DNA from: Syntrophomonas sp.
Lineage (GTDB): Bacteria > Bacillota > Syntrophomonadia > Syntrophomonadales > Syntrophomonadaceae
Assembly (NCBI GenBank): GCA_016841245.1
Contig: JAENZN010000002.1
Location: 10,843-74,842, forward strand
Direction: 5' to 3'
Length of the DNA: 64,000 nucleotides
Position 1 is the first letter of the stretch; every line of letters starts with the position of its first letter. Below, piece after piece: positions 4,995 to 52,248 of the stretch. The translations under genes and the position numbers were made by a program. The notes beneath the pieces were generated by a model. The model was not told the origin of the DNA. It ran no database searches and saw only the letters and a program-made list of their open reading frames with translations.

Positions 4995-5753
4995 TTACCT
5001 CCCCTTCAATCTTTTCAAAATCTTGGCCTGTACGTTAACGGAACTCAATATGTCCTGGGGAGATAGGCCGTATTCGGCAGCGGTTTCTATTACTCCCAGC
5101 CATTCTTCCTGATCTTTTATAGTCAAGTAATCGGTATAGGTTTCATAGTCTGGGGCATCTCGTCTTATGATAGCAGCCAGATATCCAACGGGCTGGTATC
5201 CTTCTGCCTGGTAGTCTATGTCCGGGTAGTGGGGATTAGCTGACTTTAATACTGGCTGTTTGGCTTCTTTAAAGTAAAACCTTAATGAGATCTCGGAATA
5301 TTCTCCAAATGTTTTCCTTCTAACTACTATTATCTGCCCTGATTGAGGTTCTTCAGATTCTCTGCAGATGGCCAGGTCACCATGCAGAATTCCTGCACCG
5401 ATCATACTGTCGTCGCTGACCTTCAGTACAAAGTCTGCAGAAAGGTATTTGGGAACGTCCAGGTATTCTTCGATGTTTTCATTATCCAGCAGGGGGAGGT
5501 CGGGATGGACGCGACCCAGGATGGGGAGCTCATATGATGTTTTTATTGAATCTGTTTCTACATCTATCAGATGACTCAGGGGAATATCAAAATGCCTGGC
5601 AAGAAGCTTAATGGATTCTATATTCATGCTGATTTTATCAGTTTCATACTTAGAAATGGCAGATTTTTTTACATTAAGAATCTTACCTAATTGCTCCTGA
5701 GTAAGGTTATTATTTTCTCGTAATTGCCTTAATCGTTCACCAAAGCTTCCCAA
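4995..5753 (-). CDS. XRE-family regulator with LexA-like (S24) domain
   Basis: 252 residues from the TTG at 5753, which has GAGAGGTGG about seven bases upstream; a start 29 codons earlier is possible but lacks a ribosome site and would run through the operator-like palindromes. Residues 5-60 are an HTH_3 domain (LTQEQLGKILNVKKSAISKY). From residue ~76 the chain matches the S24 fold, with the SDDSM nucleophile serine at ~116. In the place of the general-base lysine (family pattern TvKr) I read SLRFYF, an arginine, so self-cleavage may be lost. It faces the deacetylase gene at 5952 and probably represses it and itself through sites at 5783-5819. Confidence 0.8.
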   Translation of the reverse strand: MGSFGERLRQLRENNNLTQEQLGKILNVKKSAISKYETDKISMNIESIKLLARHFDIPLSHLIDVETDSIKTSYELPILGRVHPDLPLLDNENIEEYLDVPKYLSADFVLKVSDDSMIGAGILHGDLAICRESEEPQSGQIIVVRRKTFGEYSEISLRFYFKEAKQPVLKSANPHYPDIDYQAEGYQPVGYLAAIIRRDAPDYETYTDYLTIKDQEEWLGVIETAAEYGLSPQDILSSVNVQAKILKRLKGR

Positions 5754-5782
5754 TTTGCCCACCTCTCTTGTCATTATACATT

Positions 5783-5819
5783 TCCAAATAGGACACTTTT
5801 TATTTATATCCAACTTGGA
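5783..5819. promoter_or_regulatory. Two operator-like palindromes upstream of the XRE/S24 gene
   Basis: TCCAACTTGGA (5809-5819) is a perfect palindrome; TCCAAATAGGA (5783-5793) is its imperfect copy 26 bases away, and both are followed by CAC. They overlap the likely promoter of the minus-strand regulator (TATAAT at 5778-5773). Related half sites (ATTTGGAAAT) occur near 5880. Autoregulation is inferred. Confidence 0.45.
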
Positions 5820-5839
5820 CACTATTTCCGGTAAAGGCA

Positions 5840-5868
5840 TTGAAAGTTTCTGATTAGGATACTATAAT
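5840..5868 (+). promoter_or_regulatory. Sigma-A promoter for the first deacetylase gene
   Basis: TTGAAA (5840-5845), a 17-base spacer and TATAAT (5863-5868), about 84 bases ahead of the start codon at 5952. It lies just beyond the palindromes assigned to the divergent XRE regulator. Confidence 0.6.
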
Positions 5869-5951
5869 TGAAGTATCTGATTTGGAAATTAATGTATTTA
5901 AATAAAAATAGACGGGGTATGTTGATATTTAAGCAAAAGGACGTGTGGTAA

Positions 5952-6602
5952 ATGCCGTATGATAAGTCTTCGATCATATTTGTCAGGGGGGATATTCATT
6001 CCAGGCAGATTGCCCTGACCTATGATTGCAGGGCAGAACGGGGAAACGCTATAGAAGTTCTAGATGTTCTGCAGAGTCATGGAGTGTCGGCTTCATTCTT
6101 TATTACCGGTCAGTGGGCGGAAAAAAATCCTGATATCTGCCGAAAGATCATCAATGAAGGGCATGAAGTGGGAAATCATTCTTATGATCATCCGGATCTG
6201 ACCCGGATAAGCATGAAGGAGCTGGTAAGACAGGCCACTGAAGCGGATAAATCGATATACCGAGTAACTGGAAAGCATACCTATCCGTTGTTCAGACTCC
6301 CGTTTGGATCATACAGCCGCCTGGTGCTGGATGTACTGGGGGAGATGGGGTATGAGTACTGCGTTCATTGGAGCCGGGAGACCCTGGATTATCAGCAGCT
6401 GCCGGCAGATCGTATTGTGAACCGGATTGTAAATAATATCCGGAACGGCGAGATTATTCTTATGCATGTACTGGGGCAGGGGACTGCCCGGGCTTCTGAT
6501 GCGGCGGTACGCGAACTGAAGAAGCAGGGCTATGAATTTGTGACGGTAGGCAGTATGGTGAAAAAGGTAGTTGAGTTGCGTGATGAAGAGAAAGATGGCT
6601 AG
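5952..6602 (+). CDS. Polysaccharide deacetylase (NodB domain), copy A
   Basis: 216 residues, almost entirely one NodB/CE4 domain with no signal peptide, so it is probably cytoplasmic. Motif 1 reads LTYDCRAERG: the catalytic-base aspartate (D25) is kept, but the second, metal-binding aspartate of TFDD is a cysteine and the following glycycine position is arginine. Motif 2 HSYDH (76-80), motif 3 RLPFGSY and the late LMHVLG motif are intact. Length and sequence match copy B at 8028-8678, where motif 1 is TYDCGADRG. It is transcribed away from an XRE regulator. The substrate may be peptidoglycan-related or another N-acyl sugar; not determinable here. Confidence 0.8.
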   Translation: MPYDKSSIIFVRGDIHSRQIALTYDCRAERGNAIEVLDVLQSHGVSASFFITGQWAEKNPDICRKIINEGHEVGNHSYDHPDLTRISMKELVRQATEADKSIYRVTGKHTYPLFRLPFGSYSRLVLDVLGEMGYEYCVHWSRETLDYQQLPADRIVNRIVNNIRNGEIILMHVLGQGTARASDAAVRELKKQGYEFVTVGSMVKKVVELRDEEKDG

Positions 6603-7115
6603 GGTTTCGCCTGCACTGACCGCTCGGTCGGTGTCAAAGGAATGAGTTGCTTCCTGGTTCCCAAAGGCAGCTCGGGACTTATTGTAGGCGAACATTCCGA
6701 CAAGATGGGAGTTCGGGGCTCCCAGACTTCTGAAGTGGTGTTTAAAGACTGTGTCGTAGCGGCTGACTGCCTGGTCGGCAAAGAGGGGGATGGTTTCAAG
6801 ATCGCTATGAGTGCGCTTGATGTAGGCCGTATAGGCATCGCTGCTATGTCCACCGGCATCGCCCAGGGCTGCCTGGATGAATCCATTAAGTATTCGAAGG
6901 AGCGGGTTCAGTTTAAGAAGCCTATTCCCAGCCAACAGGCTATTCAATGGTTTATCGCCGACATTGCCACTGATATCGACGCAGCCCGTTTCCTGTATAT
7001 GAATGCCGCATTTATTAAAGACCAAGGCAAACCATTCAGTATCGCTGCCTCCAAGGCCAAGCTGTTTTGTTCGGAATGCGCGGCCCGGCACAGCACTAAA
7101 GCAGTACAGATTCAT
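6603..7115 (+). pseudogene. Internal fragment of an acyl-CoA dehydrogenase gene
   Basis: In frame with, and directly after, the stop of the deacetylase gene, about 170 codons encode the middle and C-terminal core of an acyl-CoA dehydrogenase: CFLVPKGSSGLIVGEHSDKM, the ALDVGRIGIAAMSTGIAQG helix, SKERVQFKKPIPSQQAIQ and a final TKAVQIH. This corresponds to residues ~175-345 of a ~380-residue enzyme. The N-terminal domain and the last ~35 residues are missing; after 7115 the frame runs into unrelated sequence. It is a relic, possibly left by recombination that placed the two deacetylase copies on either side. Confidence 0.75.
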
Positions 7116-7506
7116 TATACTTATCTGTATTCTTCAAGTGATAGAATTCCAAATCTTCGGTATTAACAGTGGACATGTAAGCTGTCCAACTGCCCTTCTT
7201 GCTAAAATGCTCGCCGTCACTCCAAGCGGTTTCAGTTTGTGGTATGAACGGAGTCGCGGTGGAGAAATGTTGGGGGATGAGATCCCGGGTAGTGCGGGGA
7301 AGTAGTGAAAATACCAGCTGGGATATCTATACAAATTGTTAATTATACAGGACCAATTGCTTTTATGGAAACAATTATCTGAACTCTGTCATGCGGGCGA
7401 AACTTGTGAAAACACTGAAGGGCAATAATAACGAGGAACAGCAGGAAAATGATATCTAGTGGCAGTTTATTCAGGCAGTAAACAAATGTTTACGTGAAGT
7501 GAATTA
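7116..7506. other. Gene-poor stretch with degenerate coding scraps
   Basis: No intact gene seen. On the + strand at about 7166-7305 a frame reads LLAKMLAVTPSGFSLWYER, faintly like the start of an IS3-type OrfB transposase, but it is too short and diverged to call. Another short frame ends at about 7432. The stretch looks like accumulated debris between the two deacetylase loci. Confidence 0.3.
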
Positions 7507-7743
7507 TTATTCATCGGTTAGATCTTTGAAAACGGAATCATCGAAAAACTCACTGATAGACATGTCCAGGCCGGAAGAGATTCGTTTAATGGTCAAAACG
7601 TTTGGATTTTTGCTTTTACCCTTTAAAATGCTATCTACGGTGGATTGGGTTAAGCAGGATAAGGTGGCCAGTTTGTTTATTGAAATTCCACGTTGGCTGC
7701 AAAGAGATTGTATCCTAAGTGCAACTGCTTCAGAGATTAAAAT
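7507..7743 (-). CDS. Small XRE-family regulator, apparently starting at ATT
   Basis: A 78-residue HTH protein: EAVALRIQSLCSQRGISINK, then LTQSTVDSILKGKSKNPNVL and a GLDMSISEFF tail, a standard short XRE/HTH_3 repressor. There is no ATG, GTG or TTG between the upstream in-frame TAG and the HTH. GAGGTG (7756-7751) lies exactly seven bases before an ATT at 7743-7741, so ATT initiation is the best reading; the alternative is a gene dead by start-codon loss. It is divergent from deacetylase copy B, with two matching palindromes in between (7814-7874). Confidence 0.65.
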   Translation of the reverse strand: MLISEAVALRIQSLCSQRGISINKLATLSCLTQSTVDSILKGKSKNPNVLTIKRISSGLDMSISEFFDDSVFKDLTDE

Positions 7744-7813
7744 AATTATACACCTCGATAAATTAAATGATATTTTGCTAAAGCAATTCTAACAAAAATC
7801 CTTAAAATTCAAT

Positions 7814-7874
7814 AACGATATATCGTTGAGATTTGATGGAAGGTTATGTAAACTATTGTTAACGATTTGTCGTT
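7814..7874. promoter_or_regulatory. Pair of 14-bp operator palindromes
   Basis: AACGATATATCGTT (7814-7827) is a perfect palindrome and AACGATTTGTCGTT (7861-7874) its near copy, 47 bases apart start to start. They flank a + strand promoter-like pair TTGAGA (7825-7830) and TAAACT (7848-7853, 17-base spacer). This is the arrangement expected for binding by the adjacent small XRE repressor. Confidence 0.55.
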
Positions 7875-7924
7875 ATATATCGGTGGAGTAGAAATAAATG
7901 GGTCAGCGATTAAGGGCCATGAGG

Positions 7925-8005
7925 CCAGGGGACACACCAGGGCCAAGGAACGGGGACACACCTGCTGCCACAGGAATGTCCCCCATGCCAGGAGATGTTC
8001 CCAAT
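7925..8005 (+). repeat. GGGACACACC-type intergenic repeat element
   Basis: Two GGGGACACACC boxes (7928-7938 and 7952-7962) and a closing TGTCCCC (7977-7983) form the short version of the hairpin family seen elsewhere in the window; the inner stem is CCTG/CAGG. The element lies between the operator region and deacetylase copy B. It interrupts a start-like frame MGQRLRAMR at 7898 that has GGTGGAG upstream. Confidence 0.75.
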
Positions 8006-8027
8006 ATATATATGGGGGAGATTAACC

Positions 8028-8678
8028 ATGCCGTATGATAAGTCTTCTATAATTTTTGCCAGGGGGGATATTCATTCCAGGCAGATTGCCCTGACTTATG
8101 ATTGTGGGGCAGATCGGGGAAAAGCTGTGGAGATTTTAGATGTTCTGCAGGGTCATGGAGTTCGGGCTACTTTTTTTGTGACCGGGAAATGGGCTGAAAA
8201 GAATACTGACATAGCCCGAAGAATTGTTCGTGAAGGTCATGAAGTGGGAAATCATTCCTATAACCATCTGGATTTGACCCAGGTAAGTCTGGAGGAGTTG
8301 ATACAGCAGATCCATGAAGCTGACAATTCGATATATCGGGCTACGGGAAAGCACCCCCAGCCTCTTTTTCGGTTGCCTTTTGGGTCATATAGCCGGCAGG
8401 TTCTTGATATACTGGGGGATATGGGTTATAAGTACTGCATTCATTGGAGCCTGGAGACTTTGGATTATCAGCAGCGAACGGCAAATAATATTGTTTATAG
8501 GATTTTAAGAAACATCAGGAACGGAGATATTATTCTAATGCATGTACTGGGGGAGGGAACTGCTGAGGCCTCTGATCTGGCAGTAACTAAACTGAAGAAT
8601 CAAGGTTATGAATTTGTGACGATAGGAAGTATGGTGAGAAAGGTATTTGAGTTGCGTGATGAAGAGAAGGATGGCTAG
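8028..8678 (+). CDS. Polysaccharide deacetylase (NodB domain), copy B
   Basis: 216 residues from the ATG at 8028, chosen for the GGGGGAG site seven bases upstream and for agreement with copy A. Motifs: LTYDCGADRG (base aspartate kept, metal aspartate replaced by cysteine), HSYNH, RLPFGSY and LMHVLGEG. No signal peptide. It closely resembles copy A throughout, including the last 20 codons, so the pair arose by duplication; the two upstream regulators are unrelated in sequence. The 5' leader contains a GGGACACACC repeat element that may separate it from its original promoter. Confidence 0.8.
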   Translation: MPYDKSSIIFARGDIHSRQIALTYDCGADRGKAVEILDVLQGHGVRATFFVTGKWAEKNTDIARRIVREGHEVGNHSYNHLDLTQVSLEELIQQIHEADNSIYRATGKHPQPLFRLPFGSYSRQVLDILGDMGYKYCIHWSLETLDYQQRTANNIVYRILRNIRNGDIILMHVLGEGTAEASDLAVTKLKNQGYEFVTIGSMVRKVFELRDEEKDG

Positions 8679-30725: not shown

Positions 30726-32711
30726 TTAAGAAATTTTGAATTGGAGTATTAGGTTGTTTAGTATTTCTGCGCTTTCGGCCAGTCGGGCTGCGGTGGAGTT
30801 TATCTCCAGGGCAGCAGTGGCAGCAGTTTCGGTGTGTCTAGCTATTTCCTGAGAGCCGGCGCTGGATTGTTCAATAGTAGCAGCAGTAGATTCGATAGCC
30901 TGGCTTACATCGTGCATGGCCACCATAATATGCTGAATGCTTTGGCTGGTATCGCCGGTCAGCCTGCTTAGCAATTCCGCGTTCTCAGCATAGAATGCTC
31001 CTGCTTCGGCCATGCGTCCATAGTCCCTGGTTACATCCTTGTTGATGAACTCTAGTAATTCACCTGTATTGCCTATGAGATTATCAATGGCACTCTGAAC
31101 TTGATGGGTCAGGCCCTGTATGGCATCAACCGTGTTAGCAGAATCTTCGGCCAGTTTCCTTACTTCTTCTGCTACCACCGCAAAGCCTTTGCCGTGTTCA
31201 CCGGCCCGGGCAGCTTCTATAGCGGCGTTAAGAGCCAGCAGATTGGTCTGATTGGCTATGTCGGCTATTTTTTCGGCCATCCCGGATATTTCATTGATAA
31301 CTTTGGAATCGTCAATAGCCCCTTCCACTTTTTGACGGATAGAATCGTATACTTTTGTGGTTTCATCCAGCATCTTGGCCGTTTCAGTCTTGGTATAAGC
31401 GGCCCGTTTTTCAACTTCCAAAGAGTCATGATGGCTTTTTTCAGCTTCACTGTTAGCCTGAGTGAGGGTAGCGGAGATTTCTTCCGATGAAGCGTTGATT
31501 TCTTCCGTGGCCGCTGAGACTTCTTCCATTCCGGCAGATATTTCCTCTACCGCAGCCGAATTTTCCTGCATACCAGTGGCGATGTTCTGGCTGGATGCTG
31601 AGAGCTGCTGGCTGGATGCAGCCACTTCCTGGGAATTGCGTGATATGTCGATAACCATCTGGTGTAAATTCTTAATCATATTATCCATACTGCGCAATAG
31701 ATGGCCTATTTCATCTTTTTTGCTCAACATAGATGGGGCGATTTCCACGGTAAGGTCACCCTGGGCTAGTTGCTCGCTGTAGTCGGCAGCAACAGATATT
31801 GGTTTAGCTATCCGTGCACCCAGCCATACTGCAATTAGTGCGCCCAGTATGAGAAAGGCAAAGGATGCAGCTACTGTCTTTTGGGACATGTTAGTTATTC
31901 CCGCCATGACTTCATCTTTGGGTGCGGTAACCGCTACCGACCAGCCGGTACCTGCTACCGGTGCATAGCCCATAAACTTTATTTTGCCATCAGTCCACAG
32001 GTATTCGCCGAAATCTGCTTCACCTGCAGTCATTTTATCTACATGGGCAATAAGGTCTGTAAGTCCGCTGTCAGCCGGTTTGTACTGTTCCAGTACCAGC
32101 TGCTGGTTGGGGTGAGCGATAACAATACCTTTCGCATTACACATATAAGCATAGCCGGTTTCTCCAAAGCTTATTTCTGCGACTTGCTGAGATAATACTG
32201 CAGCGTCTAGAGCTGCTACCAGGACTCCTTTGGTATTCCCGGCATTATCTTTTATGGGAACTGCCAGAGTGACGACTACACTGGAATCGACCTCGCTAAC
32301 TAAAGGATCCGAGATGTTGGGCTGGCCTTGTAAAGCCTTCTGGAAATAGTCCCGGTCTGCTATATTAATAGCAGTTCCGGTATTTGTAACGAAATTTCCG
32401 TTCGGGGTGGCTGGCCCGCACTGCAGGTATCCAAGCCTGGAACTTTCGCTTTTCAGCAGCGGCATTTGCTGTTCTAGATCCATGCTTATGATTTTCTCAT
32501 TGGCAGCCAAGGTTTCCAGTACCGCCAACTGCTTGTTTGCTGCATCGGCCACTAACTGAGCTGCGTCTTGAGCCTTGGTAGACACCTGGTCTTCGATATT
32601 TTCTAACAAGGTCTTAGAGGCCATGCTGTATGCAATAAAACCAAGTCCTGTACACACCAATAATAGAATCACTGTTACATATAAAGTCAATTGTGCTCGG
32701 ATGCTCTTCAA
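30726..32711 (-). CDS. Methyl-accepting chemotaxis protein 2 (dCache sensor)
   Basis: 661 residues from a TTG start after GGGAGG. Helix at ~10-30, double-Cache sensor (RDYFQKALQGQPNISDPLVS), helix ~280-300, HAMP and a signalling domain with [20 protein letters not shown]. It is nearly identical to chemotaxis protein 3: the proteins agree from about residue 65 to the end, and the DNA is identical to my eye from 30787 to 32509, while both gene ends differ at many positions. This looks like gene conversion after an older duplication. Confidence 0.92.
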   Translation of the reverse strand: MKSIRAQLTLYVTVILLLVCTGLGFIAYSMASKTLLENIEDQVSTKAQDAAQLVADAANKQLAVLETLAANEKIISMDLEQQMPLLKSESSRLGYLQCGPATPNGNFVTNTGTAINIADRDYFQKALQGQPNISDPLVSEVDSSVVVTLAVPIKDNAGNTKGVLVAALDAAVLSQQVAEISFGETGYAYMCNAKGIVIAHPNQQLVLEQYKPADSGLTDLIAHVDKMTAGEADFGEYLWTDGKIKFMGYAPVAGTGWSVAVTAPKDEVMAGITNMSQKTVAASFAFLILGALIAVWLGARIAKPISVAADYSEQLAQGDLTVEIAPSMLSKKDEIGHLLRSMDNMIKNLHQMVIDISRNSQEVAASSQQLSASSQNIATGMQENSAAVEEISAGMEEVSAATEEINASSEEISATLTQANSEAEKSHHDSLEVEKRAAYTKTETAKMLDETTKVYDSIRQKVEGAIDDSKVINEISGMAEKIADIANQTNLLALNAAIEAARAGEHGKGFAVVAEEVRKLAEDSANTVDAIQGLTHQVQSAIDNLIGNTGELLEFINKDVTRDYGRMAEAGAFYAENAELLSRLTGDTSQSIQHIMVAMHDVSQAIESTAATIEQSSAGSQEIARHTETAATAALEINSTAARLAESAEILNNLILQFKIS

Positions 32712-33360: not shown

Positions 33361-35346
33361 TTAAGAAATTTTGAATTGGAGGATGAGGTTGTTTAGTATT
33401 TCTGCACTTTCGGCCAGGCGAGCTGCGGTGGAGTTTATCTCCAGGGCAGCAGTGGCAGCAGTTTCGGTGTGTCTAGCTATTTCCTGAGAGCCGGCGCTGG
33501 ATTGTTCAATAGTAGCAGCAGTAGATTCGATAGCCTGGCTTACATCGTGCATGGCCACCATAATATGCTGAATGCTTTGGCTGGTATCGCCGGTCAGCCT
33601 GCTTAGCAATTCCGCGTTCTCAGCATAGAATGCTCCTGCTTCGGCCATGCGTCCATAGTCCCTGGTTACATCCTTGTTGATGAACTCTAGTAATTCACCT
33701 GTATTGCCTATGAGATTATCAATGGCACTCTGAACTTGATGGGTCAGGCCCTGTATGGCATCAACCGTGTTAGCAGAATCTTCGGCCAGTTTCCTTACTT
33801 CTTCTGCTACCACCGCAAAGCCTTTGCCGTGTTCACCGGCCCGGGCAGCTTCTATAGCGGCGTTAAGAGCCAGCAGATTGGTCTGATTGGCTATGTCGGC
33901 TATTTTTTCGGCCATCCCGGATATTTCATTGATAACTTTGGAATCGTCAATAGCCCCTTCCACTTTTTGACGGATAGAATCGTATACTTTTGTGGTTTCA
34001 TCCAGCATCTTGGCCGTTTCAGTCTTGGTATAAGCGGCCCGTTTTTCAACTTCCAAAGAGTCATGATGGCTTTTTTCAGCTTCACTGTTAGCCTGAGTGA
34101 GGGTAGCGGAGATTTCTTCCGATGAAGCGTTGATTTCTTCCGTGGCCGCTGAGACTTCTTCCATTCCGGCAGATATTTCCTCTACCGCAGCCGAATTTTC
34201 CTGCATACCAGTGGCGATGTTCTGGCTGGATGCTGAGAGCTGCTGGCTGGATGCAGCCACTTCCTGGGAATTGCGTGATATGTCGATAACCATCTGGTGT
34301 AAATTCTTAATCATATTATCCATACTGCGCAATAGATGGCCTATTTCATCTTTTTTGCTCAACATAGATGGGGCGATTTCCACGGTAAGGTCACCCTGGG
34401 CTAGTTGCTCGCTGTAGTCGGCAGCAACAGATATTGGTTTAGCTATCCGTGCACCCAGCCATACTGCAATTAGTGCGCCCAGTATGAGAAAGGCAAAGGA
34501 TGCAGCTACTGTCTTTTGGGACATGTTAGTTATTCCCGCCATGACTTCATCTTTGGGTGCGGTAACCGCTACCGACCAGCCGGTACCTGCTACCGGTGCA
34601 TAGCCCATAAACTTTATTTTGCCATCAGTCCACAGGTATTCGCCGAAATCTGCTTCACCTGCAGTCATTTTATCTACATGGGCAATAAGGTCTGTAAGTC
34701 CGCTGTCAGCCGGTTTGTACTGTTCCAGTACCAGCTGCTGGTTGGGGTGAGCGATAACAATACCTTTCGCATTACACATATAAGCATAGCCGGTTTCTCC
34801 AAAGCTTATTTCTGCGACTTGCTGAGATAATACTGCAGCGTCTAGAGCTGCTACCAGGACTCCTTTGGTATTCCCGGCATTATCTTTTATGGGAACTGCC
34901 AGAGTGACGACTACACTGGAATCGACCTCGCTAACTAAAGGATCCGAGATGTTGGGCTGGCCTTGTAAAGCCTTCTGGAAATAGTCCCGGTCTGCTATAT
35001 TAATAGCAGTTCCGGTATTTGTAACGAAATTTCCGTTCGGGGTGGCTGGCCCGCACTGCAGGTATCCAAGCCTGGAACTTTCGCTTTTCAGCAGCGGCAT
35101 TTGCTGTTCTAGATCCATGCTTATGATTTTCTCATTGGCAGCCAGGGTTTCCAGTACCGCCAACTGCTTGTCTACCGCATCAGCTACTACCTGAGCTGCG
35201 TCTTCGGCCTTGGTAGACACCTGGCTTTCGATATTCTCCAACAAGGTCTTGGAGGCCATGCTGTATGAAATAAAACCAAGTCCTACACATACCAATAAAA
35301 GTGTGGTTGCTACATACACGGTCAATTGTGCCCGTATACTTTTCAT
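33361..35346 (-). CDS. Methyl-accepting chemotaxis protein 3 (dCache sensor)
   Basis: 661 residues from an ATG. Same architecture as protein 2. The first ~64 residues (signal-anchor helix and first linker) and the last ~20 codons differ at the DNA level from its neighbour, while the sensor and signalling core are identical. The two receptors should therefore sense the same ligand; differences in the membrane anchor could tune expression or insertion. The repeat block lies directly at its 3' end. Confidence 0.92.
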   Translation of the reverse strand: MKSIRAQLTVYVATTLLLVCVGLGFISYSMASKTLLENIESQVSTKAEDAAQVVADAVDKQLAVLETLAANEKIISMDLEQQMPLLKSESSRLGYLQCGPATPNGNFVTNTGTAINIADRDYFQKALQGQPNISDPLVSEVDSSVVVTLAVPIKDNAGNTKGVLVAALDAAVLSQQVAEISFGETGYAYMCNAKGIVIAHPNQQLVLEQYKPADSGLTDLIAHVDKMTAGEADFGEYLWTDGKIKFMGYAPVAGTGWSVAVTAPKDEVMAGITNMSQKTVAASFAFLILGALIAVWLGARIAKPISVAADYSEQLAQGDLTVEIAPSMLSKKDEIGHLLRSMDNMIKNLHQMVIDISRNSQEVAASSQQLSASSQNIATGMQENSAAVEEISAGMEEVSAATEEINASSEEISATLTQANSEAEKSHHDSLEVEKRAAYTKTETAKMLDETTKVYDSIRQKVEGAIDDSKVINEISGMAEKIADIANQTNLLALNAAIEAARAGEHGKGFAVVAEEVRKLAEDSANTVDAIQGLTHQVQSAIDNLIGNTGELLEFINKDVTRDYGRMAEAGAFYAENAELLSRLTGDTSQSIQHIMVAMHDVSQAIESTAATIEQSSAGSQEIARHTETAATAALEINSTAARLAESAEILNNLILQFKIS

Positions 35347-48264: not shown

Positions 48265-48267
48265 GAA

Positions 48268-49120
48268 ATAGGGACAGGGGACACACCTGGGTCAAGGAAC
48301 AGGGAGGTTTCTGAGTACATCTCAAGATTGGTGGGCAGTGAGGTGAGGTTCTCGGGCTAAGGTCAGGGGACACACCTACCCTTGGAGGACCTGGCGGTAG
48401 GAATGTCCCCATTGCAGGTTGAGTGGTTTTCGAGAATGGCAGGAAGTGGGGACGAGATTCTCAGGCTAAGGAACAGGGACACACCTGGGTCAAGGAACAG
48501 GGAGGTTTCTGAGTACATCTCAAGATTGGTGGGCAGTGAGGTGAGGTTCTCGGGCTAAGGTCAGGGGACACACCTACCCTTGGAGGACCTGGCGGTAGGA
48601 ATGTCCCCATTGCAGGTTGAGTGGTTTTCGAGAATGGCAGGAAGTGGGGACGAGATTCTCAGGCTAAGGAACAGGGACACACCTGGGTCAAGGAAGTATG
48701 AGAAGGCTAAGTACTGCCATGGATTGCTGGTGCTAAAATGAAGTTCTCAGGCTAAGGAACGGGGACACACCTGCCTTAAGGTTCCAGGTTTTGCAGGAAT
48801 GTCCCCATTGTGTAGGAATGTCCCTGGGTATAGGAATGTCCCGGTTAATGTCAGGGGACACACCTGGTCGAGGAACAGGGAGGTTTCTGAGTACATCTCA
48901 AGATTGGTGGGCAGTGAGGTGAGGTTCTCGGGCTAAGGTCAGGGGACACACCTGGGTCAAGGAAGTATGAGAAGGCTAAGTACTGCCATGGATTGCTGGT
49001 GCTAAAATGAAGTTCTCAGGCTAAGGAACGGGGACACACCTGCCTTAAGGTTCCAGGTTTTGCAGGAATGTCCCCATTATGTAGGAATGTCCTTGGGTAT
49101 AGGAATGTCCCGGTTATATA
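48268..49120 (+). repeat. Large GGGACACACC-type repeat array between ilvC and leuA
   Basis: About 850 bases with nine GGG(G)ACACACC boxes. The first 198 bases (about 48277-48474) are repeated exactly once in tandem (about 48475-48672), each with a hairpin whose inner stem is CCTACC/GGTAGG (48366-48410 and 48564-48608). A second mosaic unit (about 48687-48845) recurs at about 48956-49114 with two base changes, carrying hairpins 48761-48806 and 49030-49075 (CCTGC/GCAGG). No gene is seen. The array lies within an operon, so it is transcribed. Confidence 0.9.
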
Positions 49121-50703: not shown

Positions 50704-51963
50704 ATGGGAATGACCATCAGCCAGAAGATTCTGGCCGCCCATGCTGGAAGAGATTATGTTGAGCCGGGAGAACTGTTGAACTGCAAGTTGGATGTAGTTT
50801 TGGGTAATGATGTAACGGCACCGGTAGCTATCTCGGAATTTAAACGACTGGATCTGGATAAGGTTTTTGACCAGGAAAAAATAGTACTGGTTCCAGACCA
50901 TTTTGCCCCCAATAAAGATATAAAATCTGCTGAACAGTGCAAAATAATGAGGGATTTCGCAGGTCAGTACGGGATAAAAAACTATTTCGAAATAGGACAG
51001 ATGGGTATAGAGCACTGCCTGCTGCCAGAACAGGGACTGGTTCTGCCCGGAGATTTAATTATTGGAGCTGATTCCCATACCTGTACTTATGGAGCTCTGG
51101 GTGCATTTGCTACTGGAGTAGGTTCCACGGATATGGCAGCCGGAATGGCAACCGGGGAAGCCTGGTTTAAGGTACCGGAAGCCATAAAGTTTGTTTATTA
51201 TGGCAAATTGTCGGAATGGGTAGGAGGAAAAGACTTGATCCTCCACACCATCGGTGATATAGGAGTTGAGGGAGCTCGTTACATGTCCATGGAGTTTACT
51301 GGAGAAGTAATAAGGAACCTGTCTATGGATAATCGTTTCACAATGGCTAATATGGCTATCGAGGCGGGAGGGAAAAACGGCATAATAGAGCCAGATGCCA
51401 TAACCCTGGAGTATATAAGGCATCGGGCTAAGCGGTCCTTTACCTTATATAAGTCTGATGAGGATGCGGTTTATTGTGAAATAAGAGAATACGATGTATC
51501 CGGGTTAGAACCGGTAGTAGCATTTCCGCATCTGCCTGAAAACACCAGGTCAGTCAGTGAGGCCACCGGGATAACTTTGGATCAGGTGGTGATAGGCTCC
51601 TGTACTAACGGCAGAATTGAAGATCTGGAAATGGCCGCCCGGATATTAAAAGGGAAAAAGATCCATCCGGAGATTAGAACTATAATATTACCGGGAACCC
51701 AGCAGATTTTCCTGGAAGCCATGCGCAGGGGATATATTGAAATATTTATTGAGGCCGGTGCAGCAGTAAGTACTCCTACCTGTGGACCATGTCTGGGTGG
51801 GCACATGGGGATTCTAGCCAAAGGAGAAAAGGCTCTGGCCACTACCAATCGGAACTTTGTGGGCCGCATGGGACACCCGGAAAGTGAAGTATACCTGGCC
51901 AGCCCAGCAGTTGCAGCAGCAAGTGCCATAAAAGGTAAAATTACTCCTCCCTGGGAAGTTTAA
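50704..51963 (+). CDS. leuC: 3-isopropylmalate dehydratase large subunit
   Basis: 419 residues from the ATG at 50704 (AAAGGAG eight bases upstream). Iron-sulfur ligands: [11 protein letters not shown] (~298) and [13 protein letters not shown] (~359-362). [14 protein letters not shown] and [20 protein letters not shown] are aconitase-family active-site segments. The length fits the shorter HacA/LeuC2 class. It works with LeuD, from which it is separated here by a 285-base repeat insertion. Confidence 0.96.
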
Positions 51964-51964
51964 G

Positions 51965-52225
51965 GTCAGGGGACACACCTGCCTGGGGGAACCTGGGTGG
52001 TAGGAATGTCCCCATTGCAGGTTGAATGGTTTTCGAGGATAGTAGGAAGTGGGGACGAGATTCTCAGGCTAAGGAAAGGGGACACACCAGGTCGAGACTA
52101 CAGAGTTTTCTGAGTGGATCTCGTGGATGGTTGGCAGTGAGTATGAAGGTCTTAGGCTAAGGAACGGGGACACACCAGGCCATGGAGTTCCTGGTGCCAG
52201 GAATGTCCCCATGCCAGGGAATGTC
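51965..52225 (+). repeat. GGGACACACC-type repeat block between leuC and leuD
   Basis: Boxes at 51969-51979, about 52078-52088 and 52166-52176. Hairpin 51969-52013 has inner stem CCTGCC/GGTAGG with one G-U wobble; hairpin 52166-52210 has CCAGG/CCTGG within its loop. It separates two genes whose products form one enzyme and that are usually adjacent. Confidence 0.88.
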
Positions 52226-52248
52226 CCCATTTATAAAGGAGGTTTACT

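Follow-up and report, generated by a model that had tools for sequence, protein, structure and literature searches.

Two NodB genes and their divergent regulators

The window analyzed here, a stretch of 64,000 nucleotides from a Syntrophomonas genome, contains two paralogous genes of the NodB/CE4 family, each located opposite its own XRE-type regulator across a group of palindromes (Table 1). This arrangement, which had been proposed in a first-pass annotation, agrees with the genes, the Pfam domains and the site counts. Pfam PF01522 matches copies A and B at 4e-32 and 2e-35, with scores of 111 and 122 bits that exceed the gathering score of 23.1, and an N-terminal hydrophobic segment, which was looked for in both proteins, is absent from both. 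The two regulators are unrelated, as also noted previously: one matches HTH_3 and Peptidase_S24, the other, a protein of about 78 aa (hereafter XRE78), matches HTH_26/HTH_3, and the two are not orthologous. The gene starts require revision. The S24 gene does not begin at 5840; the start is ATG 5774, or TTG 5753, which has a better Shine-Dalgarno sequence. The 78-residue regulator itself was correctly recognized, with the correction that its start, by homology, is ATT, no ATG, GTG or TTG being available.

Table 1. Features of the two NodB loci (positions in the window)
Feature	Position	Strand	Remarks
XRE-S24 regulator	4995..5753	-	252 aa from TTG 5753; ATG 5774 possible; Pfam HTH_3 and Peptidase_S24
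S24 half of the regulator	~4995-5500	-	from alignments
HTH half of the regulator	~5560-5753	-	from alignments
Exchanged block (HTH codons, operators, promoter, NodB leader)	5500..5951	.	ends at the NodB A start codon
Operator-like site ATTTCCAAATAGGACAC	5780..5796	.	12/16
Operator-like site ATATCCAACTTGGACAC	5806..5822	.	14/16
Promoter-like TTGAAA-17-TATAAT for NodB A	5840..5868	+	11/12
Operator-like site GTTTCTGATTAGGATAC	5846..5862	.	occupies the whole 17-bp promoter spacer
Operator-like site GTATCTGATTTGGAAAT	5873..5889	.	covers the predicted transcription start
NodB/CE4 copy A	5952..6602	+	216 aa; motif 1 TYDC; no signal peptide
Truncated acyl-CoA dehydrogenase fragment	6642..7110	+	Pfam Acyl-CoA_dh_1 5e-31; between the copies, outside the mechanism
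XRE78, small HTH_26 regulator	7507..7746	-	ATT start (7746 or 7743); Shine-Dalgarno GAGGTG
Putative operator AACGATATATCGTT	7814..7827	.	overlaps the -35 element of NodB B
Promoter-like TTGAGA-17-TAAACT	7826..7854	+	where XRE78 loci of other genera have the promoter of the partner gene
Putative operator AACGATTTGTCGTT	7861..7874	.	47 bp from the first; same spacing in G040 and G012
Probable remnant start of lost partner XRE gene (MGQRLRAMR)	7898..7924	+	~9 codons
Dispersed repeat, GGGGACACACC family	7925..8000	+	separates NodB B from the captured promoter
NodB B leader GGGGGAGATTAACC	8014-8027	+	identical to the G003 NodB leader
NodB/CE4 copy B	8028..8678	+	216 aa

Four TATCCAA-TTGGATA-type sites separate NodB A from the XRE-S24 gene, and NodB B faces XRE78 across two AACGANNNNTCGTT palindromes located 47 bp apart. 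The palindromes at both loci exceed chance. The AACGANNNNTCGTT pattern has four distinct occurrences across the 3.9 Mb genome, including the two at XRE78/NodB B, and GTATCCAANTTGGATAC, a consensus drawn after the sites at both copy A and a related locus of another genus (G008b) had been seen, has only five matches of at least 12/16 in the 64 kb window, four of them within the 212 bp between the S24 and NodB A genes. The two other AACGANNNNTCGTT sites, both on C2, were considered as a possible XRE78 regulon, a reading that was set aside; the predicted open reading frames near one of them include a recombinase-like one.

The description of the two enzymes as near-duplicates was overstated. The copies are only 75% identical in protein and thus are not recent duplicates (79% nt identity, dS 0.69); copy A is closer to the NodB gene of another Syntrophomonas metagenome-assembled genome (MAG), G003 (89% nt identity), and these distances rule out a recent tandem duplication. 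The G003 gene itself mixes stretches that resemble A with others that resemble B. All four NodB genes of the genus are under purifying selection (dN/dS 0.15-0.32), and neither copy in the window contains stops or frameshifts. A phage origin of NodB was rejected, the relatives among viral contigs and phage records being only 33-38% identical. The idea that the acyl-CoA dehydrogenase fragment had recently been copied from a resident gene was likewise discarded, other similar copies in the genome being just 67-68% identical in nucleotides.

Relationships and distribution of the NodB proteins

The five motifs of CE4 enzymes are TFDD, H(S/T)xxH, RxPY, DxxD(W/Y) and I(V/I)LxH (PMC5855634); the corresponding sequences in the NodB copies are TYDC, HSYxH, RLPF, ExxDY and IILMH. 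The second, metal-binding Asp of motif 1 is thus replaced by Cys in both copies, and the general-base Asp25, the metal ligands His76 and His80, Arg115 of motif 3 and His172 of motif 5 are retained. The PdaA-type MurNAc deacetylases likewise lack the second Asp of motif 1 (PMC5855634). The structural model of copy B (pLDDT 93.9) has the full CE4 fold and is closest to Bc1960, PdaC, PdaA and the pseudoenzyme BA3943, with TM scores of 0.86 to Bc1960 and PdaA; the best sequence match of NodB in the PDB is PdaA (1ny1). Among the NCBIfam families, the best matches are PdaB (TIGR02764, 172-180 bits) and PdaA (TIGR02884, 147-152 bits), below the respective equivalog cut-offs of 237.4 and 298 bits. The NodB copies resemble PdaA in the loss of the second Asp and differ from both PdaA and PdaB in the absence of a signal or membrane segment, the Cys at the metal-Asp position and the putative control by XRE regulators. 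Enzymes of the PdaA type act on peptide-free MurNAc; what links the NodB copies to this activity is the motif-1 resemblance. The similarity to the rhizobial chitooligosaccharide deacetylase NodB (TIGR04243) is limited to the CE4 domain (121-124 bits, below the cut-off of 240), whereas motif 1 is different and nodulation genes were not seen nearby.

Taken at the level of sequence, these proteins are probably cytosolic CE4 deacetylases related to the spore-cortex enzymes PdaA and PdaB. Deacetylase activity appears likely because most of the catalytic residues are kept and the missing Asp is shared with the PdaA type; it is not certain given that a metal-binding Asp is replaced by Cys and that, in the G003 protein, the motif-5 His is replaced by Asn. 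A role in the modification of the cell wall or amino sugars is plausible.

To assess the conservation of the neighborhood, 80 NodB relatives were fetched from 84,980 genomes and the surrounding genes were scanned. An XRE gene directly beside NodB was found in only two Syntrophomonas MAGs among these 80 loci and in none of the other 78; five further XRE matches in this set are located farther from NodB. Each of these MAGs, taken to be G003 and G001, has a single NodB opposite an orthologous S24 regulator. The A-type pair is present in G000, G001 and G003 and absent from G002 and G004. Conservation of the neighborhood thus holds for the A-type pair within the genus and does not extend beyond it. 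Nearly all other NodB relatives possess an N-terminal hydrophobic segment, with exceptions that include Clostridium ragsdalei and Paenibacillus. The C. ragsdalei protein is of the TYDC type, and its gene has neighbors that, judged from sequence, are glycosyltransferase and UDP-sugar genes; G003 additionally encodes a CgeB-like/LysM/NodB fusion. These contexts are compatible with soluble or surface-glycan substrates. The cytosolic TYDC-type CE4 proteins restricted to the genus make up an uncharacterized branch of the family. Our searches of a literature library on XRE regulators combined with polysaccharide deacetylases and on Syntrophomonas deacetylases found nothing. The locus with the fusion gene in G003 (L028, 3924-8798) contains three consecutive genes for proteins that, by sequence, combine a CgeB-like glycosyltransferase with LysM; one of them also carries a lytic transglycosylase-like domain and another a NodB domain.

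Control regions of the two copies

At copy A, nucleotide identity between the window and G003, which is 75-100% in most flanking windows, is 74% at the left edge of the affected region, drops to 38-63% between approximately 5534 and 5951 and returns to 92% at the NodB start codon. Across the same stretch, G003 and G001 remain 75-90% alike. The regulators show a matching discontinuity: the window protein and that of G003 are 47% identical in the HTH half vs 84% in the S24 half, whereas the comparison with G008b, a regulator from another genus of the same family that has no NodB beside it, yields the opposite pattern (71% in the HTH half vs 44% in the S24 half). In tree tests, forcing the HTH domains of the genus together was rejected at p 0.011, in a tree of 65 columns with long branches, and forcing the window protein together with G008b in the S24 tree was rejected at p 2e-41. 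The operators follow the HTH domain. Sites of the GTATCCAANTTGGATAC type (12-14/16) number four in the window intergenic region and three upstream of G008b, and none were detected in G003, G001 or at copy B; G003 and G001 carry GTTCAC/GTGAAC-type repeats instead. No such operators were found within the stretch read for two additional HTH relatives, G057 and G055 (52-56%).

The geometry of the region is conserved through the change of operator type. As in the window, the 17-bp spacer of the G003 NodB promoter, TTGACG-GTTAACAATATGTGAAC-TAAGAT, is filled with an operator-like palindrome, and in G001 the palindrome GTTTACGATATGTGAAC occupies the 17-bp spacer in the same manner. The comparisons thus show, at the sequence level, that the HTH domain, the operators, the promoter and the leader at copy A have been replaced as a block, with the S24 half and NodB kept. 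The leader retained at copy B, GGGGGAGATTAACCATG, matches that of G003 exactly and the one at copy A is different, an indication that the derived state is the one at A. It might be argued that there was no exchange at A and that the HTH half and the intergenic DNA merely diverged faster in the window species, a reading to which the shortness and long branches of the HTH tree lend some weight. This scenario is highly improbable and already largely refuted: the boundary at the NodB start codon is sharp, G003 and G001 have not diverged to this extent in the same stretch, and the HTH domain and operators match those of a regulator from another genus.

The arrangement at A recalls phage immunity regions, with divergent promoters, several palindromes, an S24/XRE repressor and a joint exchange of HTH and operators. 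Unlike those regions, it would act on a deacetylase gene; phage genes were not recognized next to it, and S24 self-cleavage is not expected. Elsewhere in the same family, two genes for S24 regulators lie 3 kb from each other on G008:C32 (L019, L024); their S24 halves are 89% identical vs 33% for the HTH halves, and by the same kind of comparison, this pair is another HTH exchange.

The history of copy B is different. Relatives of XRE78 (49-66% identical) are present in five genomes of other genera, and no NodB was found in the neighborhoods read for the four closest (56-66%). At three of these four loci, an intact, different, SinR-like XRE gene lies opposite; in G040, only the start of this partner was read. 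G040 and G012 have the complete set of three AACGANNNNTCGTT-type sites; there, 47 bp separate the second from the third, and the promoter of the partner gene begins 12 bp into the second. In the window, two of these sites remain, with the 47-bp spacing and the promoter position unchanged; the partner gene is gone and the third operator is lost. The reading frame at 7898 probably is the truncated partner, judged from a short stretch, and its ATG lies 37 bp from the operator start vs approximately 38-39 bp for the partner in G040 and G012. In other genera, XRE78 and its operators are thus found with no NodB gene beside them, which makes the pairing in B secondary and, as far as these neighborhoods indicate, a promoter capture. 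XRE78 may be poorly made or dying and B in practice constitutive, given the ATT start and the lost third operator; dN/dS of XRE78 against the other genera is saturated. The homologs of XRE78 begin with ATG, GTG or TTG, and the gene in the window appears to use ATT (7741-7746). The GGGGACACACC pattern of the dispersed repeat is found, with at most two mismatches, in 57 places in the genome vs four for the reversed pattern. Arrays that contain GGGGACACACC also lie between ilvC and leuA (48266-49116) and between leuC and leuD (51961-52231), with units of approximately 88 and 198 bp and many copies 96-100% alike.

Regulatory model and alternative readings

The genes and motifs, their homology, the exchange boundaries and the conserved operator geometry are all apparent from the sequence comparisons, and the most coherent interpretation, which we hold with moderate confidence, is that of independently repressed, PdaA/PdaB-like cytosolic deacetylases whose control halves have been swapped by recombination. 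Each NodB would be transcribed, as first gene, from a sigma-A-type promoter overlapped by operators of the divergent XRE repressor, and this repressor probably acts on its own gene as well. At A, the HTH domain, operators, promoter and leader would have been replaced as a block, with the S24 half and NodB retained; at B, NodB with its own leader would have been joined, via the dispersed repeat, to the promoter of XRE78 and its lost partner. Repression and independent control of the two copies are predicted, as is deacetylation of a soluble GlcNAc- or MurNAc-type substrate. Because the control regions appear to have been swapped by recombination, the apparent module would be explained by rewired promoters and not by a stress or phage system of wide occurrence. 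The earlier suggestion of a functional module is accordingly narrowed: it is supported for A within the genus, but neither for B nor as a general stress- or phage-responsive system.

An alternative is that selection maintains the NodB pair as a module induced by stress or phage: damage or infection would trigger self-cleavage of the S24 protein, derepress NodB and alter the wall or nucleotide sugars. The S24/XRE architecture indeed resembles LexA and phage repressors, and the pairing is conserved in three species. LexA-like regulators are described as using a Ser-Lys dyad to cut an Ala-Gly bond (PMC12273997). Alignments with LexA show that the regulators of the genus keep the catalytic Ser, but the dyad is incomplete, with Lys replaced by Arg in all three members, and the Ala-Gly dipeptide is gone in two of the three (Pro-Asp in the window, Lys-Asp in G001), G003 alone keeping it. 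The PrlP protein of Streptococcus suis, which has the same HTH and S24 architecture (266 aa vs 252 aa) and is reported to self-cleave at Ala-Gly (PMC12273997), differs from the window protein in precisely these respects. The replacement of the catalytic Lys and the cleavage dipeptide makes classical SOS release unlikely and argues against induction by DNA damage via the usual LexA/CI route, as had been suggested for this locus; a ligand or protein partner is the more likely release signal. A search on LexA K156R in the same literature library found nothing. With the other 78 NodB relatives lacking an XRE neighbor and no close NodB among the viral contigs and phage records, we regard a stress- or phage-induced module as improbable.

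Somewhat less remote, although still doubtful, is the possibility that the locus is a graveyard of rearranged genes with incidental pairings, its two NodB products being pseudoenzymes or decaying copies. The acyl-CoA dehydrogenase fragment, the dispersed repeat, the ATT start of XRE78 and the probable truncated partner between the copies are compatible with such a history, as are the Cys in motif 1, the Asn in motif 5 of G003 and the close match of the fold to BA3943. The retention in A and B of the general-base Asp, both metal-binding His, the motif-3 Arg and the motif-5 His, the dN/dS values and the intact reading frames argue against decay, and the survival of the operator-promoter geometry through the exchange argues against incidental pairing.

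Within the favored scenario of swapped control halves, we tentatively suggest that the enzyme cassette is kept repressed and that the HTH domain, operators and promoter are repeatedly exchanged, the spacer always being filled with an operator, under selection for independent control of the paralogs in a manner reminiscent of phage immunity. Copy A would be a clean natural example of replacement of the DNA-binding half and the operator/promoter as one block, with the sensor half and target gene kept, and promoter capture would have rewired the second paralog; examples of this kind show how separate control of paralogs arises.

Other parts of the window contain additional groups of paralogs. Three genes in a row at 1332-2915 encode proteins of about 171 aa that resemble phage tail-collar or microcystin-dependent proteins, and two tandem genes (30726-32711 and 33361-35346) encode methyl-accepting chemotaxis proteins of 661 aa with 12 residue differences, all in the first 59.
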